A DNA stretch of 64,000 nucleotides from assembly GCA_030272155.1 (NCBI GenBank), contig CP126202.1, positions 1,798,001 through 1,862,000 on the forward strand, read 5' to 3'. Positions 467 to 64,000 of this stretch are shown here, one piece after another. The position numbers and the translations under genes are program-made. Each line of letters begins with the position of its first letter. Position 1 is the stretch's first letter. Origin of the DNA: Tetradesmus obliquus (taxonomy: Eukaryota > Chlorophyta > Chlorophyceae > Sphaeropleales > Scenedesmaceae). The notes under the pieces are model-generated. The model did no database searches. It saw nothing but the letters and a program-made list of their open reading frames with translations, and had not been told where the DNA came from.

Positions 467-2196
467 TCAACCACTGGCAGCTGACTTATGGAATGGCTGC
501 ACACTAACAGGGCGCCAGCTGACAGCCCCCTCCTCCGACACAGAGAGCAGCTTTAGCACAAGCGAGCCGTGTTGCTGCTGCTGCTGCTGCTGCTGTTGCT
601 GTTGAAATCCATCCTCACCGCCATCTCCACTACCGCAATTGCTACTGCTGCTGCTGCTGTCACTGCACCCTCCATACAGCAGCTCTGCCAGCAGCTCCAC
701 CCCATCCCACAACCTAGGGCCTGGCCTGCTGAACAGGCCATGGTCAACGACATAAGTTTGACCAGATCTGACAGCTGCCAGGGCAGCAAAGCCAGGCTGC
801 TGAGTCAGCAATAACACATCAGGCATGGCTGCTGCAGGGCTGCGGCTGCAGGGCGACAGCAGCAGCACGTCCGGGGCCCATGCAACAATCTGCAGCAGCA
901 AACGTTTTGCCAAGACAAACAGTAGCAATGGCAGCAGTGGCAGCAGTCGACATGTTGAAATGAAAGTCACAGAAAGCCAAAGACAAGCAGCTTGGCTGTG
1001 CAACAGCTCAAGTTACAACTGTGCAGGCAAGAGCTTGTTGGAACTGAGCCAGGGGTGCTTGCTTCATTTGAACTGCTGAAGGCAGTGTTTAGCAAGCCTA
1101 CAAACTGTAGAAAGCCGGCTCATTGAAGGTTGGCCAACAGGCTCACCTGCTGCCATGTGATGCGATCAGGGCTGTCACCCGGCTGCTGCCCATAAGCGTC
1201 AGCAGCGCCCGCTGCCGCCTTCACATTTGGCATGCGACTAAACCCTGCACAGCTGCCGTGCAGGGAGCTTGTCTGACACCCAAGTCACTGCAAGAGATCA
1301 TATCTGAGATCATAACTGCTCACCTGCTGCCATGTGATGCGAGCAGGGCTGTCACCAGGCTGCTGCCCAGAAGCATCAGCAGCGCCCGCTGCCGCCTTCA
1401 CATCAGGCAGCCACTGCCCACCAAGCACCAGAGGGTTTAGCCCCTCCAGGGACAAAACCCTGGGAGGCTGGAGCCACACACGCTGCTGCAGGGGCTGCTG
1501 CTGCTGCTGCTGGTGGTTCTGGTGCTTGTTGCAGCCTTGGTTGATCGATGCCAGCTCACTACTGCTGCCGCCGTCATTAGCGGTGCCTCCACCGCAGCTA
1601 CTGCCGCTGCAACAACTGCTTTCAACACTATAGGTGGCACCAGCCGCTTTTGTGCCTGGCAGCATATAAGCACTAGCTGTACATGCAGCAGTGACAGCAG
1701 CAGCAGCAGGGCAGGCTGCAGCTACCCTGGCTGCCACCTTTACCAGCCTCTGCTGCAGCTGCTCCACCAATTCAACTGCTGCCTCAACTGCGCCTGCTGC
1801 ACGCCCAACTGCCAGAATGCTGTCTAGAACCTCCGCCAGGGTTTTGGGGTGCAGCACTAAAACCTGTGTGGTGCTGTGGTTTAGGCCCGCCTGCTGCAGG
1901 GCTTTGCAGACTAAGCTGCAGTTTGCGTCACATGTGCCGCACGCATCCTGCAAGGCACATGATGACAGCATGGAGCATAACAAAAACAAAGGATGTCAAT
2001 GTAATGACATGACATGAGCCTTTTCTGGCTCCTTTTGTGGGTGGGCCTGTGGCCCTACTTTGGTAGCTGGTGAGGTGCACAGGAGTCTTCACTGCAGAAG
2101 CACCACACTCTCAGCTCATGCAGTTGCTGAAGCAACCAAGGAGTTCACGCTGTGAGTCAACACTGTTGCGCCTGTTGCTAGCTGCTAGCTAGTCGC

Positions 2197-2227
<31 letters not shown>

Positions 2228-2447
2228 CACCAGCCCGCTGCCGTGCTCACACTGTTGTGTGACAACTTGTGTATGTTACTAACAACTAACAAGTCCTGCC
2301 ACTGCCGGTGCTGCTGCTGCTGCTGCTGCTGCCGCACCTGTGTCAGCACCAGGCCAGGCCGCTGCTGTGCCAGTAGCTGCGCGTCAACCTCAAAAGGGCT
2401 GCTGCCTGACGCCTTGAAGCCCTGCAGCCAGCAGCAGCAGTAGCGGC

Positions 2448-2492: not shown

Positions 2493-3289
2493 AATATATG
2501 GATGTTCAACCCTTCAGCGCCGGCTGCACTGCCCTCCCTCTCTTGCTCAAACAGGGCTGCAGTGTACTCTGCAGCACCAACAGCAACATGCTGAGGTGAC
2601 CAGGGGCACATAAACATGCACGCAGGTAGTACTCCAGTTTAATGCACATGCAAAACAAAAGGATTCGTAGCAGTCTCAGCTGCATGTTCAAGTACATCAG
2701 CTGTGGCTCGTCCCAACGCAAACACCAACCTGCATTGCAGCCTCGATCTCATCTGATGTCATCGCATCAACATCAATCAGCGACCGCACTGCCACAGGCT
2801 TGCCTCGCGCTTCAGGCGGGTAGTCACAAAACCCTGACACACCAACCACCCGGGACCCTAAACCCAGGGCATACAGGATCTCGGTACCGCTTGGCAGCAA
2901 CGACACAATCCTGTCACTCCTGCTGCTGCTGCTGCTGCTGCTGCCGCCGCCAATTTGTACTGCATGGCTTGGCGTGCTGCTGCTGCTAGCCTCACAGCTG
3001 CGGCTGCAGCATAGACAGTTCTGCACACTTACTGCTGCAGCAAAGCTGCTGTTGCTGCCAGCAGCAGCAGCAGCAGCAGCGGCATGCTGAGGTGGCAGCA
3101 GCACCTCCCCGCTTTCTGCTGTTGCAACGCTGCTGCTGCAGCACTGTTCAACAAAGGCAGCAGCAAGCGCAGGGCAGCCCCCAAAGTGCAGGTGCACATA
3201 GCTTGCAAGCACATTGCAAATGCTGTACCCTTCGGGCTCTGGCTCAGCTCCTGGCAGCACCTTCAGCAGCTGATACGTGTGCCGCAAGC

Positions 3290-3328
<39 letters not shown>

Positions 3329-4035
3329 GCTGTGTGTCCGTGGAGAGTGCTACAGGTACTGCTGCTGCCGCTGAACCATCTGCGCTGTTGCTGGCTGCTG
3401 CTGCTGCTGCTGCTGCTGCTGATGCCTCCTGAGCCACAACCTCACTGAAGTGGTACAGCTGCCCCCGAGCTGTCACCCCAGCAGGAAACAGAGGGCTGGC
3501 ATCTAACACCTGAACCTCAACATACCCCATCTTCATGCCTCCCATGCGGATGCTGAAAGGCAGCACACCAGCAAGCGGCACCAGCTGCTCCTGCTTTTGT
3601 TTGAATGTGCTGCTGCTGCTGCTGCTGCTGCTGCTGTCAGTGCTTGCTGCAACTCCAGCGTCTGGCTGCTGCTGCTTTGGGCTGCATGTTGATGCCTTAC
3701 CGTTTGCAAGGTTGCTGCTGCTGCTGCTGCTAGGCTGCTGCTGCTGCAGCACCCCTTTGCTCAGGTATATCAGCCCCCCACACTCCGCATACACCACCCC
3801 TCCAGCAGCAGCAAATGTGCGCAGCTGCTGCAGCAGCGCTGCGTTGCTGCTCAACTGCTGCAGATGCTGCTCGGGATACCCCCCACCCACATAGACTCCA
3901 GAAATGCCAGCTGGCAGTGAAGCATCTTTCAGGGGGCTGAAGTGTACTAGATCAGCACCTGCTGCTTGCAGCAGCGTCAGGTTGTCATGATAGTAGAAGC
4001 AGAAGGCTTCGTCACGCGCTACTGCTATCCTGCAC

Positions 4036-4079
<44 letters not shown>

Positions 4080-5648
4080 GCTGCCATTGCTGTCAATATG
4101 TGCTACGGCTTTCGCGTGTTCAGCAGCACTGCATGTTGGCACTGGTACAGCAACATCATCCGGAGACTCAGATTGCGTAGCTGCGGGAGTTTCTGCATCA
4201 GCTGCTGCTGCTGCTGCTGCTGCTGTTGCAGGGGGTGGCGGTACAGCTGCTGTTGCTGCTAGCTGCAGCAGCAGCTCCAGGTCTGTGTGCTGCTGCACAA
4301 GCCTGCCCAGCCGCTGAACATACTCAGGCACCTGCTGCTGCTGCTGCTGCTTCTTGTCATTTCCCAACTTATCCTGCTGCTGCTGCTGCTGCTCGTGTGG
4401 CATGGTGAGGCCCAGGTGCCGCTCAGGCACAGCCACAGCCGCATCCTGCAGGCAGCAACGCAAAGCAGGGCTGGTTCTTTCACAGAATTGCAGTCTGCGA
4501 CACACTCATGTGCATCCCACGGAAGCAACACAGCAGCTTATGGTGATGTTGCACGCAACCAGCAGCTCAGTGAGACCAATTTCCATGTGCTCTGTATGGC
4601 CCTGCAGCTCTCTGCTCAGTGCAAGCCAGCCAAATGTCAGATTGTTTTCCACCGCATCACAAGGCTGCGTTCTAGTCCTATGTGTAACGCTGCAGTGAAT
4701 GGTGAAGCACAATCCCAACAGCTCTGAGCGCAGCAAGTGCAGCAGCCAGCTGCTGTGGCGACCCCACTAGTGTACTGCCTACCTTGGGTATGCATCCGAG
4801 CACCTGTACTGCTGCCAGGCCAACTGCACCACGCGGCTGCTGCTGCTGCTGCTTGTTCTCCTGTGCAGCAGCTGCTGCTGCTGCTGGTGCTGCTGCTGCT
4901 GCCAGCGCCTCCTTCAGCCACACCCCATGTGCAGCACTGCCCACTTTGTTCAGCAGCAGGCCCCTCAGGTTCAAATCCTGGTCAAACTCTGCGTAGCCTT
5001 TGACCAGCGCTGCTACAGACCGTGCCATGGCCCAGCAGTCAACCACCAGCACCACTGGAGCACCCAGCCACTTGGCAATCTGCAGCAGCAGCAGCAGAAG
5101 CACCAGCAGCAGCACCAGCAGAAGCATGCACAGAAGAGGCAAATGACATAAGCATTGGCGCATCTGCGCACTTACCAGAACTCAAGACATAACACCTGGC
5201 TCTCAGCACAAGCACCTGCTGCATATTCAGATGTACCACAGCGGCAGCAGCTGCTGCCAGCCACATAGCAGCCTGCCTTCCAGTAACCCTGCTGTTGCTG
5301 CTTGTCAGTTGGCATCATACAAAGCAGTACAAGCAGCTCTGCTGTTTCCCGCAGGCTGCAGGAAAGCAAGCGGCTACCTGTGCTGTCCTGCTGTCTGCAT
5401 GGAACCAACAGTGCTGTACAAGCAGCTGTTTCCTGCAGGCTGCAGGGAAGCACGCGGCTCATCTGTGCTGTGCTGCCGTCTGCATGGAACCAACAGTGCT
5501 TTACAAGCAGCAAATTCCTGCAGGCTGCAGGGAAGCATGCGGCTACCTGTGCTGTGCTGCCGTCCTCGCTGCTGCCGTCCCTGCTGTCAAACAAGCCCAT
5601 CACTCCCTCCACCACAGCAATGTCAGCATCTGCGGTGTGCCTGCACGC

Positions 5649-5687
<39 letters not shown>

Positions 5688-7073
5688 CTGTCACATGCAG
5701 CATTCATGACCACATATGATGCCAGCATCTACAACGCATCATCAAAAAATAAGGTTGCTCCAGGAGCAGTGGCTCAGCCCATGTGTCACTTACACCAAGC
5801 CGTTGTGTTGCTTTGACCACGCTCATGTCATGTTTGACCAGGCATGGGTTTGCTTGCTCACCTACGGAAGGTGTCCAGCACCTGCTGATGTGTCTATAAC
5901 AGTATTTATGCACTCGGCCTAGCCATTTGTCGCGTCAAATGGCTAGGTGCTTTTGTGTTAGTTTGACCAGGCACATGTCATGTCTGACCCGGCGTAAGTG
6001 TGCTTGCACACCTGTGGAAGGTGTCCAGCACCCGCTGACGTGTCAGCATCCAGCCATGTATAAGATAGCATGAGAGTACTGGTTCATGTGCAACACTTTG
6101 GGGACTACACCACTGGTTGAAGCCTTGAAGCCCAAGAAGGCCGAGTAATTGAACCATAAAACCCGCATCTCCCTTTCCAGACATGACTATTAGCCAGCCG
6201 AACAGGACCAATACCTCCGTGCTACTGTTCGCCGGATTACATACAGTAGTCGATTTGTCTCTTTTGCTGGCTCACCTGTGGAAGGTGTCCAGCACCTGCT
6301 GGCTTCACTTCAAATGGCTAGGTGTTTTTGTGTCGCTTTGACCAGGCACTTGTCATGTTTGATCAGTCACATGTCATGTTTGACCATACCTGTGGAAGGT
6401 GTCCAGCACCTGCTGACGTGTCAGCATCCAGCCATCAAGGTTGATGGAGGGCCGGCCAGTAGCTGCAGCGTGGTGCATAGGGTCTAGGAAGTCAGGCCCA
6501 ACCTTGAACCCTTGCACAACAAGGCCTTGCTGCCTGCAGGAAAGATGTTGGTGCAGCATTTCAGAGGATAGCATGCTAGGATGTGTGCCCCAACAACGCA
6601 GCATCTACAGTTTTGCGGCTGTGGTGTGTGTATGCTTGTTATGGGAGCCACTGAGCTGCGGCTGCGGGTGCACTAGTGTGCCTATGATGCGTTGATAACT
6701 TGTGCATGTGCTTTGCACTTGCACGTAGATGCTCCTGATGAGCCTGGTTGTATTGTTGAATGCCAAGGTGCCAAGCAGGGCTGTCACGTAGCACAGCAGC
6801 CACAACAGCAGCAGCAGCTTGTGCCTGGCAGCTGTTGAAAAGTGTGGATTTCGGCAAACTTCTAAAACTGTGATATCGATAGGTTGCCAGCCTGCAACCA
6901 TATCTTTGCAGACATGCCTTGTTGGTCTTAGCTTGTGAAGTAATGCCTGCAGCAGCAGCAGCAGTACCACTGCCATGCTGCAGTGCAGCACACCTGAGCG
7001 CCTGCATCACTCCCGTCGCCAGCGACGTCTTCCCCACGCCACTGTGCGTGCCCGCAATCACAATGACCTTCAT
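467..7073 (-). CDS. CobB/CbiA-type cobyrinate a,c-diamide synthase fused to a BtuF-like corrinoid-binding domain
   Basis: Eight exons, all in phase: 6994-7073, 6390-6533, 5547-5640, 4783-5079, 2730-4445, 2338-2421, 1324-1947, 467-889; about 1153 residues. The N-terminus has the P-loop GTHSGVGKT (residues 8-16), then FKVGPDFLDPMHH and VVEGVMGLFD, then a VVLVVD/LLLNKVG block, as in CobB/CbiA ATP-dependent amidotransferases. Exon 5 has the PERHLGL motif and a class I glutamine amidotransferase domain with the putative nucleophile Cys in YAECGG (about residue 440) and YVHLHFG near its end. The family motif RGHEFHYS is changed to RGQLYHFS. From about residue 722 the protein becomes BtuF-like: VSLLPSGTEIL, then RPGLVLTQ, CGTCDANC, PDVLLLSPC. 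The known family reaction is glutamine-dependent amidation of the corrin a and c side chains; BtuF proteins bind corrinoids. Long poly-Gln, poly-Ala and poly-Ser runs interrupt the catalytic domain. A further in-phase intron near 2900-3040 inside exon 5 is possible. Substrate and location are unknown. Confidence 0.85.
1131..1223. repeat. Partial copy of the end of CobB-BtuF exon 7
   Basis: About 90 bases closely match the donor end of exon 7 at 1321-1413, including the CAGGTGAGC-type splice site. The copy lies in the following intron, 190 bases away. Confidence 0.8.
2448..2490. repeat. CAG microsatellite in CobB-BtuF intron 5
   Basis: (CAG)n on the plus strand, i.e. (CTG)n on the transcript, 27 bases upstream of the acceptor of exon 6. 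Confidence 0.9.
5373..5546. repeat. Copies of the end of CobB-BtuF exon 3
   Basis: Two additional copies, about 85 bases apart, of the exon 3 donor end (real donor at 5546/5547) plus intron sequence. Both contain the same ATGGAACCAACAGTGCT-like intron segment on the plus strand. Confidence 0.8.
5650..5687. repeat. CAG microsatellite before the CobB-BtuF exon 3 acceptor
   Basis: (CAG)n on the plus strand; the transcript has (CTG)n ending about 10 bases before the splice acceptor. Confidence 0.9.
5858..6300. repeat. Copies of the end of CobB-BtuF exon 2
   Basis: Three partial copies (near 5861, 6010 and 6271) of the exon 2 donor end, whose real version is at 6388-6430. The longest, at 6010-6058, still encodes GWMLTRQRVLDTFHR. 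All sit in intron 2 and share flanking TTTGACC-rich sequence. Confidence 0.85.
5918..5947. repeat. Perfect 12-base inverted repeat
   Basis: Arms 5918-5929 and 5936-5947 (CCTAGCCATTTG and its complement) around a 6-base loop, inside intron 2 of the CobB-BtuF gene. The right arm with its flank recurs near 6306. Confidence 0.75.
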
Positions 7074-9283: not shown

Positions 9284-12200
9284 TTACGCAGACCTGCGCA
9301 GCTTCTTGGCGGACGGCGTGGTGCAGCCCTCAGGGAAGGCACCAGTGCCGGGCTTGCAGCAGGCCGCCTTGGTGGGGAACACCAGCGCCTTGCCAGCCTT
9401 CAGGTCATCAGCCAGCTTGCTGCCAATGTCATCGGCCTTAGCGGGCGCCTTGGCAAAGTAGGCGGTGGCTGCTGCCGGCACGTTGGCGCAGTTGCGCTCG
9501 CCGGAGGCCTGGTCCAGCGTGCCGAACCACGCGCCCAGGTTGCACTCAGGCCTAGGGGGCACGCTGTTCATCTTGCGCTTCATGAACTCGGAATGGTCCT
9601 GGATGACAGCCATGGTGGAGTCGGAGTCGTCCACGCCGTACGGCCCGCGCGCATCCTGGCCGTCAAACACGGGGATAGCCAGCTTCCAGAACAGCGAGCC
9701 GGCGATCGGCTGCTTGCCGTCGATGGCCTTCTCAACGGATGCATAGGTGGACTGGTAGATGGGGTCGCGCAGCTGCTGGATCATCCACTCGGTCTGCTGG
9801 TCGGCGTTGAGCTTCTTGCCGAACTCCTCAAACATGATGGGCTTGGAGCCGGAGGAGAGGTTGGCGCCGGCAGTCATGTGCGACTGCACCCACTTGTCCA
9901 GGAAGGCGGGGATCTTGTCCTGCAGGGGCAGAAAGAAAAGGAGTTGGCGGCAGCTTGTAAGCTTCGATCCAAAGGTTCTGGACAGTTGCGGAAGGTTGTG
10001 TGGCTGGCGCACAAGTTCCTGCAAGCTGTGCACAACGACACAGACCACGGCATGCACTGCTGACCTGTCACACTGCCTGCATCTGCGGACCCCAAGGCTG
10101 CCCTGCTAGCTTTGCTGCCGACATGCAGCACCGAGCATCTGCGCGCACCTGGGGGAGCATCCAGTTGTCAGGCCACGCGTGCACGGTCGCAAAGTCGATG
10201 TTGGGCAGGTTGGTGTTCATCACAAAGTCCTGGCCCAGCTCGCGCGCCCACGCCTGCGGGTTGTACTGCATCAGCTGCGGCGTGCTGTCGCCGTAGAAGC
10301 CCTCCGAGCCAATGGTGATGAGGTGGTTGGGGTCCAGGCTGCGCACGTGCGTGGACATCTCAGCCAGCCAGTTCTGGAAGCGCTTGTTGCAGTCCTTGTT
10401 GGACGCCAGCCACGACTCGCAGCGAGGCTCGTTGATGAGGTTCCACGCAATGATGGTGGGGTCGTCGCGGTACACGCGCCTGCAGGAAACACGAAGACAG
10501 ATGAAGGCCTGAGGTCAAACCAAAGCAGCATGCACAGGGTTCTCAAGATGCTGCTGCTGTACAAAAGGACAATGTGCTGCAACTGCCAGCAACCGGCTAC
10601 AAGTGCTCCCCTACAAGGCATGCCAGCAGCCCTGCCTGCAGGACTGCTGCTCTGCCAAGCTCTGCTCACCCGTTGATGCTGTTGTTCCTGTTGACGAGGA
10701 ATGCCACGTGGTTCTTGTAGAACTTCTTCGCGTCGGGGTCCGAGAAGAACAGCGCGTGGCGCTCCGTCTCGTAGCGCTTCAGCTCCTCGCCAGCGGGGCC
10801 GGTGCCGTAGATGGCAGCGGTGGGGTCGCCCACCAGGTCCTTGAAGGGAGAGGCCAGCGTGCGGTTGGGGGCAGTGGAGGACCTGTAGAAGTGAAACAAA
10901 CAGCACACGATGGTGATGCAGGGGAGTGATGCAGGATGATGAGCAGACGGCGTAGCTGGCCTGCGCTAGGGCAGCCATGTCTGTGCACGCGGGGGTTGAA
11001 CATAGGACCTTTGCAGGAACCCTCCAGCTGCTGTAAGAGCATCACTGCTGCCATCAGTTGCTCGCCCTGCACCGCCTGCCTCACGTACCGCTAGCAGCAA
11101 CACCCAGCAGCCGCACCGCCACTCACCAGTCCACGTACTGGTCCACGCCGTTGTAGTACTTCCAGTTGTCGATGAACGACAGGATCACCTGCAGGCCGTA
11201 CTTGCGTGCCGTCTCCAGCACAAAGTCCAGCGACTTGAGGCCACGCTCGTCGTACTTGCCGGGAGCCACCTGCAGGACACACCATTGCAGGAAACAACAA
11301 GCGCAGCAGGGAAGGGGTCAGGGCTATGTTGCAGCTGCTTGCGAGGCTGCTGCAGCATGTCAGTGATGCACAAGAATGAAGCGGTTGCGTATGTTGCATA
11401 TGTTGCTGCTGTTAAGTATGTTGCGCTGTGCTGGTGCTGCTGCAGCTGGCTCAGCAACCACTGCGAAGCAGTATGCTTGCACGCATAGGCGTTTACAGGC
11501 AGAAACACGCCGGACCAGACCTAAAGGTGTGGCAACATGTGAGCTGCTGCGCTGCTGCCTCTCCTGCAAGGCGCACCTGGAAGGGGTACAGTGCTGTGGT
11601 GGTGTGTGCCCACATGCGGACTGTGTTGATGCCGCGTGCTGCAGCCGACCGCAGAGTGTCGTCAACAATCTGTGCTCCAGACCGGTCACCTGCACAATAA
11701 AATGTTGACAACGTCAGGAGCAAGCACCAATAACACATCAGGGATCCTTAACAGCAACCCAAACCATTGTCCCAACAACTGCCTGCGGCAACAGCTGGGG
11801 TTGTACCAACAACTGGAAGCCACAGATGCAACTGACGTAACAGGCTGCTGGCAGCTGCATAAGGTGCGTTTCTAAATCAAAGGCTTGTATAGTTCGCTGG
11901 CGAGCAACTATGGGAGTCCGGTGCACCCATTGCTGCTTGGCGCTCGTGTATCAGCTGCTTGCCGCGGCAGCCACGCGGTTGTTGCTACTGCTGCACTCCT
12001 CAACCACTGCGGCAAAGGCTCCTAGCATGCTGCTGTTGCTTGCAGGAATCCCACCAGACATGCAGCAAATCACCATCAAAGACAGTGAAACAGAAACGGC
12101 ACAAGAATGCTGCTGCAGCTAGTCCATGCACTGTTTGGCGCTGCACAGCGTTGTACGCACCGACTGTCTCTGCACGACGGGATACCATTGCTGCTTCTAC

Positions 12201-16536: not shown

Positions 16537-16577
<41 letters not shown>

Positions 16578-16729: not shown

Positions 16730-16749
16730 GTCATGTAACACCAAGCAAC

Positions 16750-49173: not shown

Positions 49174-49189
49174 CTGCCATCAGCATGTT

Positions 49190-49620
49190 ACCACTGAAGC
49201 CAATGCTTCCACCCTCTACATCATGCATTGGCCATGCTGTGCCCCAAGGGCGGTGTTGCTGCGGGCAGGGGCACATGGGTGGTTGTGGGGCTGAGGGTGT
49301 TGAGGGACCGGTGGGCAGCTGCACTGGAATCCGCTGCATGACCCGAATGCGGTGGCGTGCTCCCCTATTCCTGGTTACACCATGTAGCTACCATCAGCAT
49401 GTCACCACTGCAGCTGAATGCTTCCGCTCTCTGCATCATGCATAGGCCATGCTGTGCCCCAAGGGCGGTGTTGCTGGAAGGCAGGGGCACATGGGTGGTT
49501 GTGGGCTGAGGGTGTTGAGGGCGAGCAGAGCAGTGGGGCAGGCGGGCAGCTGCACTGGAATCCGCTGTATGACCCCAATGCGATGACGTGCTCCCCCATT
49601 CCTGGTTACACCATGTAGCT
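49190..49620. repeat. Two copies of the terminal coding unit and stop of the large low-complexity gene
   Basis: Units ending near 49388 and 49618 repeat the final coding segment (GQLHWNPLYDPNAM...GYTM, stop), plus about 100 bases of following sequence, after the real stop at 49173. Confidence 0.9.
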
Positions 49621-51147: not shown

Positions 51148-52637
51148 ATGAGCAGCCGTGGCACCCGTGGTGGTGCTAAGCGCAAGGCAGAAGAGGTAGC
51201 TGTGCCTGCTGCTGCAGCAGCAGAGGCAGCTGCTCCAGCTGCAAAGAAGCGCTCCAAGGCCGCAGCAGCAGCAGCAGCACCTGCGCCTGCAAGCAAGCAG
51301 CCAGCAGCAGCTGTAAAGGAGAGCAAGAAGAAGGCTGCAGCACCTGGTAAGGAAAACAAGGTACAGAAGGCTGGCCCTGCAGCAGCAGAAGCAGCAGCAG
51401 GAGGAGGTGGCAAGGTAAAGAAGGCAAAGGCCAGCCCTGCGCCACCAGCAGCAGCAGGCAAGGCCAAGCGCAAGCAGCAGGCTGCCGCGGCTGCAGCCCC
51501 AGCAGCAGCAGCTGCCACCAAGAAGAAGCCAGCAAAGAAGCAGGCCACCGCTGCCGCAGCAGCAGCAGCAGCCGAACCCAAGAAGCAGCCGAAGGAGAGC
51601 AAGAAGGCAAAGAAGCCCAGCAAGAAGCAGCAGCAGCAGCAGGCTGAGGAGCAGGATGAGGAGCAGGATGAAGATGAGCAGCAGGATGAGGAGGAGGGGC
51701 CACAGCAGCAGCCGGTGCACGAGCAGTTCATGGCACTGGTTGCGGAGAAAGAGGCAGAGCTGGGCAAGCACTGCATCGTGCTGGGCCAGTTTGATGGCGA
51801 TGAGGATGAGGCCACCATTGAGGACCTGATGGGCCTGCAGAAGGTGTTTGTGCCGGAGCAGGTGCAGGACGACTTCATCGAGGTGAGCGTGAGGGTTTGT
51901 TCCTGCTGCTGCTGCTTCTGGCTGCTGCAGCTGTGGAGCGAGCTGGATGACGTGGGCAATCAGAGAGGCATAACCCGCACATCCTCATACTTGCATCACT
52001 CACACCTCAACCACAACTTTGCTGCTGCTTCTGGCTGCTGGCTTCTGGCTGCTGCAGCTGTGGCGGGAGCTGGACGATGTGGGCAACGGCAGCATGCACA
52101 AGCCGCATTTTCTCAAAACGCCGCAACACTGACACCTTGATTCGTCCGCTGCTGCTGCTGCTGCTGCTGCCGCCGCTTGTTGTAGCTGTGGAGCGAGCTG
52201 GACGACGTGGGCAATGAGAGCGAGGATGAGGGCGAGGATGAGGACGAGGACGGCAGCGACGGCCTGGCAGCATTCATGAAGGCATTCATGGTGAGCTGGC
52301 TGCGGTGCAAAGTTCAGCAGACTGCCGATTTGAGGTGTACTGGCTGTGCTGATTACTGCCTGCGGAAGGGCCTGCTGTTGTTTGCTGCGGCACAGACTGG
52401 CTAGCAACATAACGGAATACGGTCTGGCTGCCTTTACGAAGGCCATTCAAGGTGAGCTGGTTGCATCCATGATGTGTTTGCCTGGCGTTGTGGTGACGTG
52501 CATGCATGCTTGCGATTGTTGTCCAAGGGTTTTCCTTGGGTCTGCAGCAGTTGCAAGAGCAGGGCTTGAAGGGCCCGCACCGTGCATGGTGGCCAACCCT
52601 CAACACTGCAGTATCGCACGCAACCTCAACTGTGTGT

Positions 52638-52826: not shown

Positions 52827-53413
52827 ATGGCAGCAGATGCAGCAGCGTTGTGCCGCTTGAGCAGATTCACGTGAACGCACCCCCAACTCGTCACGTGACA
52901 GCACTCCCACCCACACGTAGCAAACTTCATGTGCACATGCTGCTGTGCTGTGCGTGCAGGGCCAAGCTGTGGCAGACGGGCTTCTGCTGGTGGCCAGCCT
53001 CGGCAACAACCTCCATTGCACAGCCTGAAACTGTTGATATATTGTGTTCTCAAGCACATGCTGTTTTTTTGTTTGTTTGTTTGTTTGCGTTGTGTGCAGG
53101 GCCAAGCAGTGGCAGGCGGCCTTCTGCCGCTGGGCAGCCATCGTGATGGCAGCACGCAGGGAGAGCCACTGGTGGGAGGACACAGGTGAGAAAGCAGCAG
53201 CAGCAGCAGCAGTAGCAGTAGCAGGCAGCAGCAGCAGCAGTTTGATGTATGTGCATGTGAAGCAGCATGCCTGTTCAACATGGCAGCCTGAGCAGCAGAC
53301 GCGCGCCTTGCATTATTCCGGGAACTGTGCAGCTGGCATTCTGCTGTGAACACCCCGTGGGCTTCCTGTTCATTCAGCTGCCACCTGACGCTTGTACTGC
53401 ATCTTTTTTCTGC

Positions 53414-53457: not shown

Positions 53458-53687
53458 GCAGACAAGCCTGCTGCTGCCACGGTCATCTACAACAAGCTGC
53501 GGACGCAGTGGGGCAAGCTCAAGGAGCGCAGCGATGAGGTGAGCCATCAACAGATGTAATCGGCTTTTGATAAAAATGGTTGTGGTGCTGGCATGCGATC
53601 AGTTTATTGGTGCTGTTTGTGCATGGTTGCTTGCAGGAGCTGGGCGGGCTGGTGACGGAGGGCAGCGGCTGCCCAAAGGCGGCACTG

Positions 53688-53728
<41 letters not shown>

Positions 53729-54083
53729 GGCTGTACACCTGCAAGCTGCAGGAGCTGGGTGGGCTGGTGGCGGAGGGCGCTGGCTCATGTTGATGCTGAC
53801 CTTGCTGCTGATGCTGCTGCGGTTGCTGTCGCTGCTGTGTCTCAATTTTCAAACTGCAGGAGCTGGGCGGGCTGGTGGCTGAGGGTGGCGGCTGCGCCGA
53901 GGAGGCACTGACTGCTGAGATTGCTGCTGCTGAAACTGCTGCTGCTGCTGATCTGAATTCCTGCAGGAGCTGGGCGGGCTGGTGGCTGAGGGTGGCGGCT
54001 GCCCCAAGGAGGCGCTGGGCGGCTACCTGAGCGGCATGGCTGAGGAGATGCGCGGCATGGACTACGAGGTGGAGGACGCCTAG
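51148..54083 (+). CDS. Lysine/alanine-rich probable nuclear protein with acidic stretches, unrecognised
   Basis: Six exons in phase: 51148-51882, 52186-52290, 52698-52780, 53100-53185, 53462-53538, 53967-54083; 400 residues. The first 190 residues alternate Lys-rich and Ala-rich segments, like histone H1 tails or nucleolar proteins, and hold several possible nuclear localisation signals (for example AKKRSKA). Acidic Glu/Asp/Gln runs follow. A complex conserved-looking part then reads FMALVAEKEAELGKHCIVLG, LWSELDDVGN, FLGTQHSGQMQAILSSHLK, WQAAFCRWAAIVMAARRE, VIYNKLRTQWGKLKERSDE and a final exon ending in YEVEDA. I do not recognise this domain. Introns carry partial copies of exons 2, 4 and 6 and long CTG tracts before the acceptors of exons 2, 3 and 5. 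A TGTAA lies about 455 bases after the stop, a possible distal poly(A) signal. Confidence 0.78.
51925..52100. repeat. Two copies of the start of lysine-rich protein exon 2
   Basis: Copies at about 51925-51965 and 52050-52092 match the LWSELDDVGN start at 52186, each after a CTGCTGCAG acceptor. A copy of the exon 2 end lies at 52415-52452. Confidence 0.8.
52640..52693. repeat. CTG microsatellite at a splice acceptor
   Basis: About 18 CTG units run directly into the CCAG acceptor of exon 3 of the lysine-rich gene. Confidence 0.92.
52950..53010. repeat. Copy of the start of lysine-rich protein exon 4
   Basis: GTGCAGGGCCAAGC...TGGCAG matches the acceptor side at 53094-53140 with several substitutions. 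Confidence 0.75.
53066..53089. repeat. (GTTT)n tract before an acceptor
   Basis: T-rich run with GTTT units 10 bases upstream of the exon 4 acceptor of the lysine-rich gene. It is a conventional pyrimidine-rich tract, unlike the CTG runs at neighbouring introns. Confidence 0.85.
53636..53935. repeat. Three copies of the start of lysine-rich protein exon 6
   Basis: Copies at about 53632, 53744 and 53855 (spacing about 111 bases) match the last exon at 53967. All start after a GCAG acceptor and keep the ELGGLV frame. Confidence 0.9.
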
Positions 54084-55284
54084 AGAGCTTGCAGGAACGG
54101 TGCAGCGCCTGCAGGAACAGGAGAGTTTCCCTGCGTCATGCGTGCAGCGCTGGGGCAGCGGTGCCGTTAAAGTGAGAGTCATTGTGCTGCACCATTGCTC
54201 TGAAGCCTATGGCGGCCTGAGCGGTGTTGCCAGGAGTTGCGTGGCATAATCTTGAGGTGGAGGATGGAGGAAGCGCTTGCAGGATCTGGGCGCAGCGCTT
54301 GCAGGAACAGGGCAGCGCTTGCAGGAACAGGGAAGCCCTTGCAGGACGCGTATAGGGCTGCAGGAATGCTGCAGATGCAAGTCAGAGAGGCCTGTAGCGC
54401 TGCTGGCAGCGGGACCTGAGTTGCAGTAACAGAGTTGTGTTGTGCTGATTCAGTCAACAAAGTGTGTGTTTCCCCAGGGACCGCTGCCTGCGGTGGAGTT
54501 TGCATGGTTATCATGAGCATCAAGGTGGTGATGACCATGTAACAGTGGACTTGTGGCCGGGCAACATGCTTCACAGAAGCCTTGACAGCCTTGTCAGCCT
54601 ACGGCAATCATCAGCATCACGTTACCAAGCAAGCCGCAGCCCCAGCGCCTGCGCCAACACCCACGGCACGCAGGTTTCATAGTCACGTTTTATCACCATT
54701 TGTACTACAGAAAATGCAGCACTACAGCAGGTAACAACCGAAAAAGAAGGTGCAGCACTGGATCTCGCAGGCCACTGCAATCCCCTCCTTGTGCTGAGTT
54801 TGGCAGGGACCACTGCGACCGCCCAGACACACGAGCAGAGAGAGCTGCTGCCAGCAGCAGCGACTGGCACTGCAAAACGGACGCCCTTGTGTTGGAGCTC
54901 ATCAACCAGTGCATCACTGTTGCGCCATGTGATGCCCAACAGTAGTAGGCACCAGCTCAACTTGAGTGACTGAGTCACAACTTTGTGAACTCGAGATTGG
55001 GCACATGTGCTACGGCAGAATGATTGCAACAGCGCTGTTGCCACTGTTACCAGCAGTAAAAGAAGTTTCATCATGATCAAAGGAAGAATGGCTGATTACG
55101 TTACGGAACACTCTGGAACTCACAGCTCACTGGGCTCACAAGGCTTGAAGCCCTTCAACAGTATCCACCCACAAACAGCCGCCACCATGTGGCAAACACA
55201 TGTTGAACACCAGCCCCACAACCTGGACTGTTGCGCACACAGACCCAAACCTGCGACTGTTCCACAGCAGTTTGTACAAATTCT
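54084..55284. other. 3' region of the lysine-rich gene and intergenic
   Basis: 54280-54350 has short tandem copies of GCGCTTGCAGGAACAGG. The rest shows no supportable gene. Confidence 0.5.
54539..54543 (+). terminator. Possible distal TGTAA poly(A) signal
   Basis: First TGTAA after the lysine-rich protein gene, about 455 bases past its stop. The distance implies a long 3' UTR, so this is tentative. Confidence 0.3.
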
Positions 55285-55725
55285 TGAAACGCCGTGCCGC
55301 TACACGCGCAGCCACGATGCGGGCATCACGCCCACCGTGCCTGCCCGGTTGGCACGCCGCATCCTGCTCATGCTGCTTGCAAGCAGCCCTTGACAGGGCA
55401 CCATAGAACTCCCTGTCGAGCTGCGCTATGCCTGCAACACGCGGTACACACCAGTCCACACACCTTTGACAGGTTGAATGTTGCACACACGCCAATGTCT
55501 GGTGCCTTTCTTTAAACAGTCAAACGTGTGACTTTGCAGCCCAAGCAAACATATTGCTGCTACACCCGCAACCACGATGCAGGCATCACACCATGCGCAT
55601 CCTGCCTGTTGGCGCGCCGCATCTCTGCCTCGTGCTGCTTGCCAGCCGCCCTCAGCAGTGCGCCATAGAACTCCCCGTTGAGCTGCGCTATGCCTGCCTG
55701 CAGCACTTCCCTGTGGTGCATGATG
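55285..55725. repeat. Two copies of the C-terminal exon end of the 288-residue protein
   Basis: 55557-55725 repeats 55830-55990 almost exactly, including the stop codon; 55290-55440 is a more diverged copy. Both lie beyond the stop of the minus-strand gene. Confidence 0.88.
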
Positions 55726-55829
55726 TGCAGCTGCCCCAGGGTACCTGCATGGTCCAGGGCCTGGATGTCATGCAGCAGCCGGACACAAAGCGCAACAGCG
55801 CTGCCATGCCCCAAACAGGCACCTCGCCA

Positions 55830-57575
55830 CTACACCCGCAACCACGATGCAGGCATCACACCATGCGCATCCTGCCTATTGGCGCGCCGCATCTCTGCCT
55901 CGTGCTGCTTGCCAGCAGCCCTCAGTAGGGCACCATAAAACTCCCCGTTGAGCTGCGCTATGCCCGCCTGCAGCACCTCCCTGTGGTGCAGCTGTCCCAG
56001 GGTGCCTGCAAGGTCCAGGTCCTGGATGTCGTGCAGCAGCGTGGTGAAGTGGGACAGCACCAGCGGCAGCTCGTCTGGGCAGGTGGCTGCGAGGCGCTCC
56101 GGGGTCTCTGCAGGGGGGCAAGGGCAGGGGGTAATGTTTGACAACGTGAAGGTGAACGTGCATCCTTTGGGGTCGAGGAGGTGGGAAGAGGTGTATGGGC
56201 AGATTGCTGCAATAGTCGGCTGCGGGGCTGCTGGCTTGCAGCAGCACCTTATATACAGTGCCTTGCTGATGGCTGATGGCTGTTGTCTAGCAGGCAATCT
56301 GCTGGAGCGACTTCAACACCACCTGACAGCAGGCTGCAGCTTGCAGGATGCACTGCTTCAGCGCCTGTGAAGTCTAGAACAGCCTGAAGTTATGCCTGCT
56401 GCTAGGAGACGCTGGCAGTAGTTGGCATGGCCCAATGGCTGACTGTATGCTTGTACATGTTTGTATGCTTGTACATGCTTGTACGTGCTTGCACTGCTGC
56501 GTTGCACCTAGGGATCCCATGCTTGTAGGACTCACTTGGTGGGAAGCTGAACGAGCCTGCAGGGTTCAGGTCCACTGCCCCACCCCATGCTGGGCTAGCA
56601 GGGCGCTGCTGCTGCTTTTGCTGCTGCTTTTGCTGCTGCTGCTGGTGCGCATCCGGTGATGTGGATGCCTTGCTGGTTGCTGCTGCCTCCTGCTGCGTGT
56701 CTGATGGCGCTTCGAACAGCAGCTGGGACCTCATGCTGAGGTATGTGGGGCTGTGGCTGCTGCTGCTGGTGGCGCTGGGGTTGCTGCTGCTGCTTCCGAG
56801 GCGCTGCTGCACCTGCTTGCACCTTCTGAGGATGCTGCTGATGGTGTCGTGCACGCCAGCATACTCTGCAGCAGGGCAGCAGTGTTGCAGACGTAAACGA
56901 TAGCTGTGGGTTTCATGTTATGCTGCAGATGCTGCCGGTTGAGCTGCGTGGCTGCTGGGTTCGGATGCAGCAATGCAGTTTCAAGCAGTTACGGCACTGC
57001 AGCTGGTCACTGATTCATGCCAGTGGTTGCTACAGAGATGTCAGCCCCTGGCTGCTGTGGACGTGTCAGCCAATGTTGTAGCTGCTGCTGACGCATTGAC
57101 CAGCAGCAGTTCAGCAAATCCCACCAACCTGAGTGCAGTTGCTTCTTGCGCTCTTCAACCATCTTTTCCTGTTGCAGGCAGCAGCATGCAACGAGAGCAA
57201 CATCAGTGCAGGAGCATGACACTTGGTGGAACCGTTGATACTGTCATGTCATGGCTTGGGTTCTGGTATGCACCATGCGCTGTCGACAAGGTTTGACTGG
57301 ACGCATCACACACATGCATCCTGCAAAGTCCTGGCAGTGGCTGCAGCACTGCTCACCCGCTGCTGGCTGTTCAGGCTGCCTGCCCTTGCTGCTGGTCCTG
57401 GCAGAGGTGGCTCGGGCACCCTGTGCTTCCAGTCGGCGACCACCCAGGCAGGCCTTTTGCGTGAATGAGGGCTGCGGGGAGGCCTGGGGCTTGCTACATG
57501 GCTGCACACTGCTGCTGTACGGGAGTCGAGCAGGGGCCTCTTGTCCACCTCGCTGCGAGTACTTATTGGCTCCAT
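55830..57575 (-). CDS. Unrecognised 288-residue protein with helical N-terminal region
   Basis: Four exons in phase: 57357-57575, 57129-57168, 56536-56865, 55830-56107. The start MEPISTRSEVDKRPLLD is followed by a proline/basic region. The 40-base exon 2 encodes EKMVEERKKQLHS, which joins exon 3 (EYAGVHDTISSILRRCKQVQQ) into a likely coiled coil. A Gln/Ser-rich linker follows, then a helical C-terminal part (LPLVLSHFTTLLHDIQDL, GIAQLNGEFYGALLRAAGK). The tiny exon and matching phases support the model. The C-terminal exon end is copied twice past the stop codon (55285-55725). I recognise no family; a vesicle-trafficking or adaptor protein is only a guess from the coiled-coil look. Confidence 0.62.
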
Positions 57576-58201: not shown

Positions 58202-59618
58202 ATGGCTAGCTCCATCAAGCGTCATGATGCTGGCCAGCAGCAGCAGGAGCAGCAGCAGCTGCATCGCGCGAATCTCACAAACTGTCAGTTCGCGTGTTTA
58301 GCCCTCACCCTTTCGTTGGGAACAATCAGCCAATGGTATGACTATACAGGTGAGCAAGCGCATCGTAATTGGCGTTCCAGCCAGCATCAGTGCAGCGTGC
58401 CTGAGGCAGGAGCAGCCCATCTACTGCCAGGGCAAAATGCATATGACTACACACCAGGAACATACAAAAACAGCAGCAGCAATTGCCGCAGCTGAATGCT
58501 TAGCAGATAGCACAGATAGCACTGCACCCTGTGCAACACACGGCCTGCGCAGCAGCCAGCACTCCACAAGAGCACTGTGAGCAGGCTGGTATCCTTGTCA
58601 CATGTTTCGCCAGGTCAGCCTTGCTGAAATGCCAAAGCCACACAGCTCGCTTGCTGATGGCATGTGCCAGCAACTGTTGTATACTTTCTTCCTCCGCCTG
58701 CACGCGCAGTCCATTGCTCATCCTGTTACTGTCTGCTGCGCTCTTCCTGCAGTCTACACTCAGCTCAGCACCACACTTGCAGGAGTCTTCTTTCCTGCAA
58801 GTGACTGGATCACAGCACACCTCAGCTTCTATGGTGTGTATGCAGCAGGCTTCCTGGCTAGACCCCTCGGAGCAGTCTGCTTTGGCCACGTGAGTGCAAA
58901 AGCAGCACGGTGTGGCGGCATATTGTGGCAGCAACAGCCAATGCCAGCATCAGCAGCAGCTGCATCATCAAAGCAGCGGTGGCGGTGGCGGCAGCAGCAG
59001 CAACAGCAGCACCCGTCCAGCAGCTGCTAGCTGTTACACTGCTCAAGCTGTTCACACACAACACACACCAAGACACCGTATCAGCCACCAGCAGCTGTCA
59101 GACTGCACAGCTTTGTTATGTTTTTTTACAAAAGCATCTGATATGTTTCACCATACAGTCAGAAGCAACCGGCTTAAGGACATGCTCTTTCATCCTGTCG
59201 TATGCTCGTCTCAGGTTGCTGATGCCTTCAACAGGCGTGCCTCAGTGGTCACTTGCATGTGGGTGACGCTTCTATGCTGCACTGTACAGTCTGCAGTAGC
59301 TGACCCTGATATTTGCGCTCTATATGCGTGCCGCAGATTTTTGATGCTTACAGCAGGCGCGCCTCTGTGGTGACCACCATCTGGGTGACGCTTCCATGCT
59401 GCACACCGTACAGTCTGCAGTAGCTGACCTCAACACTCGCGCTCCATTTCCTCCATTTTATGCTGCAGGTTGCTGATGCTTACAGCAGGCGTGCCTCAGT
59501 AGTGACCACCATGTGGGTGACGCTGCTGGCCACAGTCGGCATCGGCTGCCTGCCGACCTACCAGCACGTTGGCGTTGCAGCACCCGTCATGCTGCTGGTG
59601 CTGCGCTTTGTGCAGGGT

Positions 59619-60679: not shown

Positions 60680-60720
<41 letters not shown>

Positions 60721-63700
60721 CTGTGCTGCATGCAGCGCCGGGCATCATTCTGGGCATCCTGGCCTGCCTGGGAGTGCTGCACTTCTGCACACCAGGTGAG
60801 CGGCGGCAGCAGCAGCAGCAGCAGTGACAGCAGCAGCAGGGGCAGCAGCCCCAGTGACGGCAGCTACATCACCAGCAACGGCAGCAACTAAAGCAGCAGT
60901 GGCAGCTGCGTCAGCAATCGCAGCGGTAGCAGCAATGCAGCAACTGTGCAGTGCATTTGCAGCAGACAGCCCTGCTTATACACTGGCGTGTCGCCTCAAA
61001 CCTCATCCAGTGCCCGTCAACATTATGTGTGCAAGCCCGGGGTCCGCCTTCAGCATCATCCTGTCTCCGTTCACGCACGTTGCCTGCCATCAATGTGCAT
61101 TGCAGGCCAGCTGCTGCTGGGGCTGGCGGGTGCCCTTCCTTGCAGCAAAATTAGCAAAATAATTCGCCCTGCATGTTTGCACCCTGCTGACACTCAGTCT
61201 TCACCATGGCTGCCATTGTGATGAACTGCAGGCCAGCTGCTACTGTGGGGCTGGCGCGTGCCCTTCCTTGCTGCAGCCCTCGCAGCACCTTTCGCTGTGC
61301 TGCTCCGCGCTAGTATGGTCGAATCTATTGAGTTTATAACCTCCAAGCGGCAGCACGTGCTGCAGCGCGTGGCGGCGACGGCAGCAACGCGCGTCGCCGA
61401 TACGTTCGCGACGCAGCGCACGACGTCGGGAAAGCTGATGAGTCGCCGACAGATCCAGCGGCAGCTGCAAAATGTAACAAAAGTGGTGCTTTCACCAAAC
61501 AGCAGCATACAGGAAGATGATGACGTGGCAGATGATGCATCAAATGGCGAGGAGCATCTGGATGCACATGCAGCTCCTGATGGAATGGAGGGGATGTCAG
61601 CGCGGCGTGCGCGAGGGGTGTCAAATGCTGGCACCGTGTGCAGCAGCCGCGTGCACGAGCGGGTGTCGGAAGGAGGCAGTGTATTCGGCCGTGCTTCACA
61701 TGGCGGCGGCAGCTGCCATGCAGCAGCAGCAGCAGCAGCAACCGCTGAGCTGCCGCTATCAGCCAGGCCCTCAGATGATGACGATGCAGGGGACAGCTAC
61801 AGCAGAGGATGCGCTGCAGATGATGCGCATCAGCAGCCAGGCACAGCAGCAGCAGCAGCAGGTGCGCTAAAGCGCTGCATAACATCGGACACAGACAGAG
61901 CAGTAGCTGGATCCGAGCGCACGCCAGGCACTCCCCACACACCCTACTCCCCATTCAGCCTTACTCAGCCACTCTCACCACAGACTGCTGCTGCAGCAGC
62001 AGCAGCAACAGATGGTGGAGGTGCAGCAGCACCCAGCCAAAAAGCAGAGCTAAAGCTATGGCTAGACGAGTCAGCTGCTATAACAGATATCGGCTGTGAG
62101 ATGCAGTACGTGGCTCAGCTGGAGCTGGCTGGATCAAAAATAACAACGCATGTGCCGCTGGCAGTGCTGGCGCGGCAGCACAAGCAAGTGCTGTGGCTGC
62201 AGTTTTTCCTGGAGGCGAGTTATGCTACAACCTTCTACATCTTCACCGGGTGAGTCGCAGCATTAGCTTCGTCAGTTTCCAGCGTGATAGCGTTTGTTGC
62301 ATCGACGGTGCGGCACACAACAACTGTTAGCTGCAATGCTGTAGCAGTGTCACTGCTGCAGCGTGGCGTGTGACGTTGAGTTGGAGTGGAGTTGAGGTGG
62401 AGTTTTTCCTGGAGTCCAGTTATGCTGCAACCTTCTACATCTTCACTGGGTGAGTTGAGACGTCGATTGAGACGTCCGTGGTAGGCTGCTGCAGCATGCA
62501 CACAGTAGAAATGCACGATTGTGTCAAGTCCTGCGGCGACTTTCTACGTCTTCACTGCTTCTGCTGCTTTGATGTCTTCAACACGCAGCTGGCTGCCCTC
62601 CTACCTGCGAGCCACCACCAAGCTCCCGCCCCAATCCATCATGTGGGCCCTACTGGCCGGCGTGACCCCCTTCGCTCCTACAACGTCTGCCAGCTGCTCT
62701 TGTACTTCCCAATGCTGCGAGCTACTTACTCACCCACGCTGGCCGCCGCCGCCGCTGCTGCTGCTGCTTTTCTGTTTTGCAGTTGGCTGCCCTCCTACCT
62801 GCGCGCCACCACCAAGCTCCATCCGCAGTCCATCATGTGGGCCCTACTGGCAGGCATGGCCCTCTTCGCTCTTGAAACGTCTGCAAGTTGCTCTTCCTCT
62901 TCTCACTGTTGCGATGTACCTATCCACACACCCTGGCCGCCGCCGCCGCCGCTGCTGCTACTGCTGCTTTGCTGAATGCAGTTGGCTGCCCTCCTACCTG
63001 TGAGCCACCACCAAGCTCCCGCCCCAATCCATCATGTGGGCCCTACTGGCCGGCATGGCCCTCTTCTCTCTTACAATGTCTATTAGTTGCTCATATCATC
63101 GTCCGCTGCTGCGGTGCACCTACTCATCTATGCTGGCCGCTGCTGCTGCTGCTGTTGTTGTTTTGCTGAATGCAGTTGGCTGCCCTCCTACCTGCGAGCC
63201 ACCACCAAGCTCCCTCCTCACTCCATCATGTGGGCCCTACTGGCAGGCATGGCCCTCTTTGCTGCAGCAGCACCCTACGGAGGCGTCTTAGTGGACAGGG
63301 GCCTCCCAAAAGTGTGGGCCCTGATGGGCCTGAGCCTTGGAGTGGTGGCAACAAGCATCCCAGTCATGTTTGCGCTGAACGCGGGCTCCTTTGTGTACCT
63401 GATGGTGCTGCTGCCGGCCATGCTGGGGGTAGCTGGAGTGATGGGAGGTGTGCTGAGCAGCATTGGGCCGCAGATGTACCCGGCGGCTGTGCGGGTAACC
63501 GGGTTCACTCTGGGTGAGTGCAGCGCAGGAATTCATTGCTTGTGCGGCAGTGCATTTGCTAAGTTTCCTTGTTTCGGTGTTTGTTGGGTACCTGATGGTG
63601 CTGCTGCCGGCCATGCTGGGGGTAGCTGGAGTGATGTGAGATGTCTTGAGCAGCATTGGGCCGCAGATGTACCCGGCGGCTGTCAGAGTCACTGGCTTCC

Positions 63701-64000
63701 CCTGGGTGAGTACGTGGCTGCCTGCCATGCACGCCTTGGCATTGTGCGCTCTTGTACAGTCTGTGTTACTTCTGCTCATTTACTCTGGGATGTTCCGTAC
63801 ATGCATTTTGCACCTGAGGGTGCTGCTGCTGTGCATGCTTGGGGTGGCTGGGGCCATGGGCGGCGTGCTGAACAACATCCTGAACTTTGCCGTTGCTGCT
63901 GCAGGCCACAGTCTTGCTATGTCAGCGTGGGGAGGCCTGTCCCCCTTCATGGTCTCAGCCATTGTGCTGCTGGTGCAGCCCTCCGCACTGGCAGCAGGCC
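58202..64000 (+). CDS. Major facilitator superfamily transporter, metabolite:H+ symporter (MHS/ProP) type, partial at right edge
   Basis: Nine exons seen, in phase: 58202-58349, 58753-58889, 59469-59616, 60024-60043, 60348-60432, 60736-60795, 61232-62249, 63176-63513, 63905 to the window end. About 683 residues are visible. The MFS loop 2-3 signature GHVADAYSRRAS is split by intron 2. RFVQGMSVGGE, typical of the MHS branch, is split by intron 3 and uses a 20-base exon. FLARPLGAV, YLFEAAPVGRKG and LLWGWRVPFL are further MHS blocks, and FGHV and PSYLRA-type segments continue into the second half. Between helices 6 and 7 (exon 7) sits an insert of about 300 residues with Ala/Gln runs, far longer than in bacterial relatives, presumably cytosolic. 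Bacterial MHS members move osmolytes, dicarboxylates or shikimate with protons; the substrate here is not deducible. Introns are full of partial copies of exons 3, 7 and 8. Confidence 0.85.
59210..59395. repeat. Two copies of the start of transporter exon 3
   Basis: Copies at about 59213-59275 and 59333-59395 match 59465-59525 (AYSRRASVVTTMWVTLL). Confidence 0.88.
61100..61160. repeat. Copy of the start of transporter exon 7
   Basis: Matches the GCAGGCCAGCTGCT acceptor region and the LLWGWRVPFLAA coding segment of 61228-61280. Confidence 0.8.
62400..62565. repeat. Copies of the end of transporter exon 7
   Basis: 62402-62456 repeats the AATTFYIFTG end with a GTGAGT donor; a second, more decayed copy lies near 62535-62565. 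Confidence 0.82.
62585..63090. repeat. Three copies of the start of transporter exon 8
   Basis: Copies start near 62589, 62783 and 62981 (spacing about 195 bases) and match 63176 onward (LPSYLRATTKLPP...IMWALLAGMALF). Each is followed by a similar intron with a CCGCCGCTGCTGCT run. The third has TGA in place of an Arg codon. Confidence 0.92.
63585..63890. repeat. Copies of the end of transporter exon 8
   Basis: 63588-63720 repeats the exon 8 end (63395-63520) but carries an in-frame TGA; 63812-63880 is a more diverged copy. Confidence 0.85.

Follow-up and report, generated by a model that had tools for sequence, protein, structure and literature searches.

Results and discussion

Exon edges are repeated in tandem across a 64-kb window of the Tetradesmus obliquus genome

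The window, by which we mean the whole stretch of 64,000 nucleotides analysed here, comes from the green alga Tetradesmus obliquus and spans positions 1798001-1862000 of contig C12 (CP126202.1). The whole genome comprises 104,662,953 bases in 17 contigs; a published table lists the assembly, GCA_030272155.1, at 104.70 Mb, 17 contigs and 56.5% GC (PMC12571836). Genes were predicted, without RNA support, by a self-trained two-strand gene finder with a minimum exon length. Its last training round, on the window and the other sampled loci (satellite-like ones included), gave 50 genes and 487 exons, a predicted donor consensus of CAG/GTGAG and acceptor consensus of CTGCAG/G, and predicted median lengths of 121 bp for exons and 239 bp for introns. 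In the window, the predictions include two neighbouring GH5 genes, A (9294-12847), with a Pfam match (PF00150) on one exon, and B (16290-22370), assigned through its similarity to A. They also include a CbiA/CobB-like gene (PF07685), a peptidase C78 gene (PF07910) and a transporter-like gene with a weak match only, below the cut-off. Rfam, at the gathering threshold, had no match anywhere in the window. Our subject is the local copies of exon edges, here called echoes, that accompany many of these genes: alignments show the end of an exon, its splice site and the start of the intron repeated together.

Self-comparison of the window, with microsatellites masked, revealed 95 local pairs in direct orientation, with offsets <1.5 kb, that together cover 19% of it; the same comparison found no local inverted pair. 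None of three dinucleotide shuffles of the window contained a local pair, and one had a single non-local pair. The echoes noticed in the initial annotation are thus real. The 95 pairs group into 40 clusters, from 1141 to 63878. By a strict rule, 28 of the 40 contain a predicted splice junction flanked by 8 bp or more on either side, in good agreement with the 29 or so places first claimed, and both strands are indeed involved (17 clusters in minus-strand genes, 11 in plus-strand genes). Seven further clusters, those beginning at 18755, 19208, 20919, 51917, 53632, 61101 and 62198, have a duplicated exon edge in alignments or in the exon-side scan. The claim that almost every gene is affected went too far: between 8 and 16 kb, a stretch that includes GH5 gene A, there is no pair at all.

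As a second measure, we queried with up to 60 bp from the exon side of every predicted edge and recorded intronward matches scoring at least 40. Such a match was present at 63 of 207 edges in the window and at 119 of 951 edges over all loci scanned; when other loci were taken at random, none of the 951 edges matched. These edges are not independent, as a single duplication can yield both a donor row and an acceptor row. The exon parts of the 119 pairs have a median identity of 92% (5-95% range, 83-100%); for the central half of the pairs, divergence in the exon part is 5-11%, and just nine pairs reach an identity of at least 99%. Once arrays are collapsed to units, offsets in the window have a median of 157 bp (quartiles 121-245); they are mostly 80-260 bp, with 100-140 bp the most frequent. 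Identity shows no trend with offset (rho 0.12, p = 0.24, n = 100).

Seven distant pairs were found within the window, six linking the two GH5 regions and one a CAG-type repeat. In this within-window comparison, the duplicated unit is arbitrary local sequence and not a dispersed element, and no dispersed intronic copies such as Introner elements were seen inside the window, which is what the comparison covered. Among the literature matches listed, with subscription journals largely out of reach, no title or abstract dealt with boundary echoes in this alga.

Surplus copies decay neutrally overall

To follow the fate of the copies, we retained 100 of the 119 pairs, excluding those with a junction gap >3, and ran indel tests on the 89 of these with an identity of at least 0.85. 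Exon-part indels in the 89 pairs were 21 frameshifting vs 2 in-frame. The echo retains its GT or AG in 85 of the 100 pairs, close to the rate expected from the first ten bases of the exon, which are 93-94% identical. Beyond the splice consensus, homology in the intron part exceeds 95% of controls in 48 of the 95 pairs so compared.

In the 63 pairs that were selected by their exon side and extend 30 bp or more into the intron, intron divergence was ~3.8 times that at codon positions one and two. Where pairs were selected by their intron side, the ratio was 1.34 (95% interval 1.05-1.79, 47 pairs). A neutral surplus copy is expected to give a ratio of 2, and the two kinds of selection bias it in opposite directions. 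We considered coding constraint or gene conversion as the source of the excess of intron over exon divergence and rejected both: the excess is an ascertainment effect, and selecting by the intron side reverses it. Overall, surplus copies decay neutrally, with exceptions in the C78 gene. Self-comparison and alignments together support the earlier suggestion that introns have grown here through tandem duplication, with the copies now at many stages of decay.

Geometry and selection mostly account for the preference for exon boundaries

We next asked how units are distributed once arrays are collapsed and exon-internal and intergenic units are set aside. On C12, 61 units contain a junction and 28 are wholly intronic (61/89, 0.69), compared with a share of 0.55 +- 0.06 when positions are shifted (3 of 300 shifts as high). 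Contigs C1-C3 have eight junction units and five intronic ones (0.62; shift 0.58 +- 0.12). Exon-internal duplicates are scarce on C12, at 3 of 104 units vs 5.9 expected by shift.

We compared these shares with a simulation in which duplications with C12 unit lengths fall uniformly on 11 echo-poor C1-C3 loci, wholly exonic ones are discarded and the surplus copy decays neutrally. Exon bases other than every third were frozen, the true frame not being used, and the simulated ratio omits intergenic and multi-junction units. At birth, 60-62% of simulated units span exactly one junction, or 66-68% with multi-junction units, which the observed class includes. After decay and detection, the share is 56-60%, or 57-65% when pairs visible only by their exon part count. 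Because uniform duplication with selection gives 56-65% vs the 69% observed, targeting is not needed, and the boundary preference is mostly a matter of geometry plus selection. The suggestion in the initial annotation that some process targets these segments is to that extent superfluous, with room for a small excess.

Collectively, our data make it probable that the majority of echoes arose as small tandem duplications in direct orientation, in and around genes, not targeted to boundaries and tolerated where the surplus copy falls in an intron. In this model, small tandem duplications would arise often in and around genes with no aim at boundaries, and selection would discard those that harm coding sequence. 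A unit lying over one exon end could survive, with the intact exon outermost and the surplus copy spliced out as intron. Since the intact exon would stay outside and the surplus become intron, donor echoes would come to lie downstream and acceptor echoes upstream, each lengthening the intron. The surplus copy would then mostly decay neutrally, and a chain of such copies would lengthen the intron further. The donor-downstream, acceptor-upstream arrangement claimed at the outset is thus what survival under selection would produce. The scan looks intronward by design; with an opposite-direction control added, 86 of the 951 edges matched intronward only, 36 in the opposite direction only and 33 in both. 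The opposite-direction matches are perhaps due to echoes labelled as exons.

The duplications are probably products of break repair, most simply of staggered breaks or paired nicks whose ends were filled in and joined. We propose this route because the copies are in direct orientation, the units measure ~100-250 bp and no tracts are needed. In mammalian cells, break repair by CST/Pol alpha-primase fill-in and end joining gives small tandem duplications (PMC8355091). These resemble ours in being direct tandem copies that do not require flanking repeats and offer a route to genome growth; they differ in that the overhangs were induced, in mammalian cells, and went down to 43 bp, whereas the units of this alga mostly measure 100-250 bp and are old and decayed. 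The potato RdRp gene gained an intron by tandem duplication across an intron-exon boundary (PMC4974935). The duplicated segment there crosses one exon-intron boundary, as do those here, where 28 of 40 clusters hold a junction; but that single duplication made a new intron, whereas the dozens here lengthen existing introns and none is demonstrated as new. A study of Chlamydomonas and its relatives reports notably long introns with no usual short-intron peak, and offers length selection only as a hypothesis (PMC8226300). The group covered there excludes this alga, whose median predicted intron, 239 bp, is similar.

Several observations weigh against this explanation. In the window, 43 of 61 junction-or-intron units span a junction, a share reached in 4 of 300 shifts, and the observed 0.69 exceeds the simulated shares by 0.5-2.4 standard errors; a small bias that geometry does not account for is possible. 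On C12, units in intergenic DNA reach about half of the expected number (12 vs 25.1). The self-trained gene models, lacking RNA support, label some echoes as exons, and 47 of the 95 pairs have no detectable intron homology. Codon-position differences are overdispersed across 53 independent pairs (p = 0.007), seven of which changed at third positions only vs 2.4 expected. Finally, across six pairwise comparisons covering 20 codons apiece, the four inner copies of an array in the C78 gene differ from one another at 30 third positions vs 10 at codon positions one or two.

The phenomenon is ordinary in kind and locally very dense. A region in which about three in ten exon edges are duplicated is a direct record of intron growth, of the decay of surplus copies and possibly of new introns or alternative exons. 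It also calls for caution: a duplicated exon edge at a splice site mimics intron birth while being mainly a leftover of duplication and selection, and it misleads gene prediction.

Echoes are concentrated on part of contig C12

Echoes mark 93 of 321 edges on C12 (29%; six loci, including the window) vs 13 of 540 on C1-C3 (2.4%; 21 loci), a 12-fold contrast that shows a strongly regional density and not, as was first proposed, a property of the genome. On C4-C15, 13 of 90 edges have echoes (10 loci with edges, of 12). In a per-locus test, C12 differs from C1-C3 (p = 0.0003), and C4-C15 vs C1-C3 gives p = 0.23. Duplicates cover 19% of the window, 16% of the other C12 loci, 2.9% of C1-C3 and 9% of the small C4-C15 loci. 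Two small loci further along C12, at 3 and 4 Mb, contain no duplicates but also lack predicted genes, so the C12 excess is shown for 1.0-2.0 Mb only.

Two loci, L013 and L021, are satellite-like, with local repeats covering 67% and 76% and a lower GC (0.49 and 0.48); these two and L017 were left out of the counts. L042 and L043 have zero duplicate pairs and zero predicted exons, and L040 and L041 zero predicted exons. A whole-genome protein-kinase profile search, intended for counting echoes, proved too insensitive (149 matches among those listed, 115 of 744 candidates scored; ~3 neighbouring matches overlap on the profile by eye).

For the regional concentration and the coding-like C78 copies, a tentative idea, which we would not put ahead of simple tolerated duplication, is that C12 at 1-2 Mb, together with scattered loci, forms a genome compartment with a raised rate or weaker removal of small tandem duplications, alongside growth of CTG/CAG tracts. 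Duplications crossing a boundary would there lengthen introns, might shift or seed introns, and could leave near-identical exons like those of the C78 gene under coding selection. Tracts of at least five units are found throughout the window, at 16.7 per 10 kb. The contrast between contigs would let mutation and selection be told apart.

The C78 gene contains candidate duplicate exons

The peptidase C78 gene, on the minus strand, has the copies that look least like decaying surplus. A donor-side echo of a C78 exon lies at 34055-34270 (offset 126). Over the 64 bases compared, 11 of the 22 third positions have changed and none of the 42 others, although the codons adjoining the donor do encode different amino acids. 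Two acceptor-side echoes of the same exon lie at 34278-34796. They are followed by a large array at 34920-36389, with offsets of ~128 and multiples, which includes five tandem open copies (~35620-36195) of the start of one C78 exon. All five encode nearly the same peptide with the motif WGCGFRN, which we take to be active-site-like. The outermost copy is less biased than the inner four, with differences at 17 first, 13 second and 25 third positions (four comparisons). Since two neutral copies should show no third-position bias, the bias in the C78 gene counts against neutral decay there. For copies that differ by synonymous changes only, a possible alternative is that they derive from other alleles or from hybridisation.

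It is therefore a serious possibility, if on the improbable side, that some echoes, a minority, serve as alternative or mutually exclusive exons, which coding selection would have kept as functional duplicates. The overdispersed codon-position pattern favours it, as do the two best cases, both in C78: the 34055-34270 echo and the five open exon starts. Outside C78, a short exon and its two splice sites are present in ~6 tandem copies at 24163-25037 (minus strand). These have decayed to differing degrees, and several keep their splice sites; one copy, tested against Pfam, had no match. The general pattern is different. Frameshifting indels outnumber in-frame ones, as given above for the 89 pairs, and splice dinucleotides are not preferentially retained. 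Within C78, the 34055 echo exon is 80 bp long by hand count, and its inclusion as a cassette would change the reading frame; the amino acids encoded just ahead of its donor differ, and the outermost of the five copies is the less biased one. Overall, then, the extra copies do not preserve frame and protein sequence; most members of the C78 array do.

Copying directed at exon boundaries is unlikely

A process directed at boundaries, for example through breaks coupled to transcription or splicing or through a step templated by RNA, would copy preferentially at splice sites. The comparison of boundaries with positions elsewhere, proposed in the initial annotation, shows a modest real excess on C12: junction-containing pairs number 60 of 95 in the window vs 41.9 +- 5.6 by shift (0 of 500 shifts as high) and 31 of 56 in the other C12 loci vs 18.8 +- 4.7 (1 of 500). 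The excess is absent on C1-C3, with 9 of 37 pairs vs 14.4 +- 4.0. In many pairs, similarity stops within the first ~6-25 bp of intron beyond the splice site, as such a process might predict, but deeper intron homology is present in the 48 of 95 pairs noted above and wholly intronic units are common (28/89). The simulation without targeting comes close to the observed share of junction units. Thus, we consider boundary-aimed copying unlikely.

CTG/CAG tracts vary with duplication between loci

Between loci, duplicate coverage rises with the density of CTG/CAG tracts (Spearman 0.78, n = 23; 0.61 in 17 C1-C3 loci), and a few arrays adjoin tracts (those at 28775 and 39721). Recombination or slippage between dispersed tracts could thus make the units. 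Within the window, however, tracts and duplication show no correlation in 4-kb bins (rho 0.07), and tracts are not enriched inside units, either in the window (15 of 67 vs 20.0 expected), the other C12 loci (11 of 37 vs 8.9) or C1-C3 (2 of 25 vs 4.5), although masking may hide some tract-bounded units. A shared regional cause seems more likely than tracts making duplications, and we regard the latter as doubtful.

Echoes in GH5 gene B and the question of intron birth

The two GH5 genes differ in the number and positions of their introns, and echoes are found in gene B only, gene A having none. The gene B echoes, all on the minus strand, begin with a donor-side array of ~4 copies (17309-17896, unit 146-148). 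Next come a donor-side echo at 18755-18865 (offset 86), an acceptor-side echo at 18881-18994 (offset 84) and a donor-side echo at 19208-19377 (offset 116). An acceptor-side array at 19399-19724 consists of the exon and two echoes (unit 125). It is followed by an exon-part duplicate close to an acceptor (19886-20049, offset 121), a donor-side echo at 20240-20371 (offset 70) and a three-copy donor-side echo at 20643-20895. In the acceptor-side echo at 20919-21090 (offset 115), the unit can be read by eye as intron, acceptor and 52 bp of exon, after which the next copy starts. The last is a donor-side array at 21247-21919.

By hand count, all six gene B introns that have no exact counterpart in A carry echoes, compared with one of three shared introns (p = 0.083), and two B introns lie ~21-36 nt from an A intron. 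This distribution suggests a link to younger or shifted introns; loss in A fits equally. In Drosophila, near intron pairs and novel positions have been put down to intron sliding or tandem duplication (PMC2891723). Such near pairs resemble those of the GH5 neighbours, ~21-36 nt apart, where one of the two genes has the echoes and either position could be the older.

The initial annotation also raised intron birth from segments bearing AG/GT. In the Rogers-type model, duplication of exon sequence containing AGGT supplies both splice sites (as summarised in PMC4974935). That model shares with our data tandem duplication inside genes, but its in-register signature, in which the upstream exon end equals the intron end and the intron start equals the beginning of the following exon, does not rise above chance in the 471 predicted introns that are 80 bp or longer. 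Each measure had one outlier, and no intron stood out on both. Both outliers proved to be misread echo arrays, and we rejected them as candidates. At L038, 2074-2450, in a gene that presumably resembles VPS41, a donor edge is repeated three times, the last copy with an in-frame stop, and imitates intron birth to the gene finder. At 35677-36059 in the window, an acceptor echo of the five-copy C78 array was labelled a donor. In addition, the gene B intron at A codon ~317, the single intron checked in this way, has the donor echo first and the acceptor echo last, contrary to the model, and gene A may have lost introns instead. Set against these points, the GH5 counts and the near intron pairs leave birth of introns by tandem duplication of AGGT-bearing exon sequence very unlikely.

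An assembly artefact, for which tandem copies are a classical setting, is a negligible explanation given that so few pairs (9/119) reach at least 99% exon-part identity, that the middle half differ at 5-11% of sites and that copies contain stops and frameshifts.

Other echo clusters in the window

The remaining clusters lie outside GH5 gene B and the C78 copies described above. On the minus strand, the alignment at 1141-1409 shows a donor-side echo with an offset of 177 and 93% identity. A donor-side echo of ~3 copies (5324-5564, offset 85-89) and a donor-side array of several copies (5803-6435) follow. At 2730-6532, also on the minus strand, the predicted CbiA/CobB-like gene has a glutamine amidotransferase exon (PF07685) and then an exon weakly like a periplasmic binding protein (PF01497, below the cut-off); it is possibly a fusion, or two genes joined by the gene finder. 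Further minus-strand clusters are an acceptor-side echo at 25305-25453 (offset 101), an array at 36507-36872 (offsets 141-290), a donor-side echo at 37137-37461 (offset 264) and an array at 55295-56040 (unit ~260-270). A tandem duplicate at 39721-40120 (unit 108-123) adjoins CAG/CTG tracts and is largely inside a predicted exon.

On the plus strand, a local duplicate within a predicted exon (28218-28368, offset 96) precedes an acceptor-side array adjoining CTG tracts (28775-29085, unit 121), an array with a unit of ~200 (30655-31388) and an acceptor-side echo at 32227-32510 (offset 193-199). The duplicate at 32546-33015 is mostly intronic and adjoins a donor (offsets 157-237). A donor-side echo at 42729-43084 (offset ~250) is followed by a junction-containing duplicate at 43163-43349 (offset 124) and a donor-side array at 49015-49648 (offsets 231 and 446). 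Acceptor-side echoes at 51917-52220 (offsets 127 and 255) stand next to a second junction-containing duplicate (52259-52464, offset 160) and another acceptor-side echo (52951-53139, offset 140). A four-copy acceptor-side array (53632-54017, unit ~107) runs up to tandem duplicates in a mostly intergenic stretch (54026-54331). Beyond these are an acceptor-side array at 59201-59527 (unit ~122-132) and an acceptor-side echo at 61101-61275 (offset 126). The transporter-like gene has a donor-side echo at 62198-62455 (offset 200). An acceptor-side array at 62555-63263 (unit 194) and donor-side echoes at 63391-63878 (offsets 193 and 415) complete the window.

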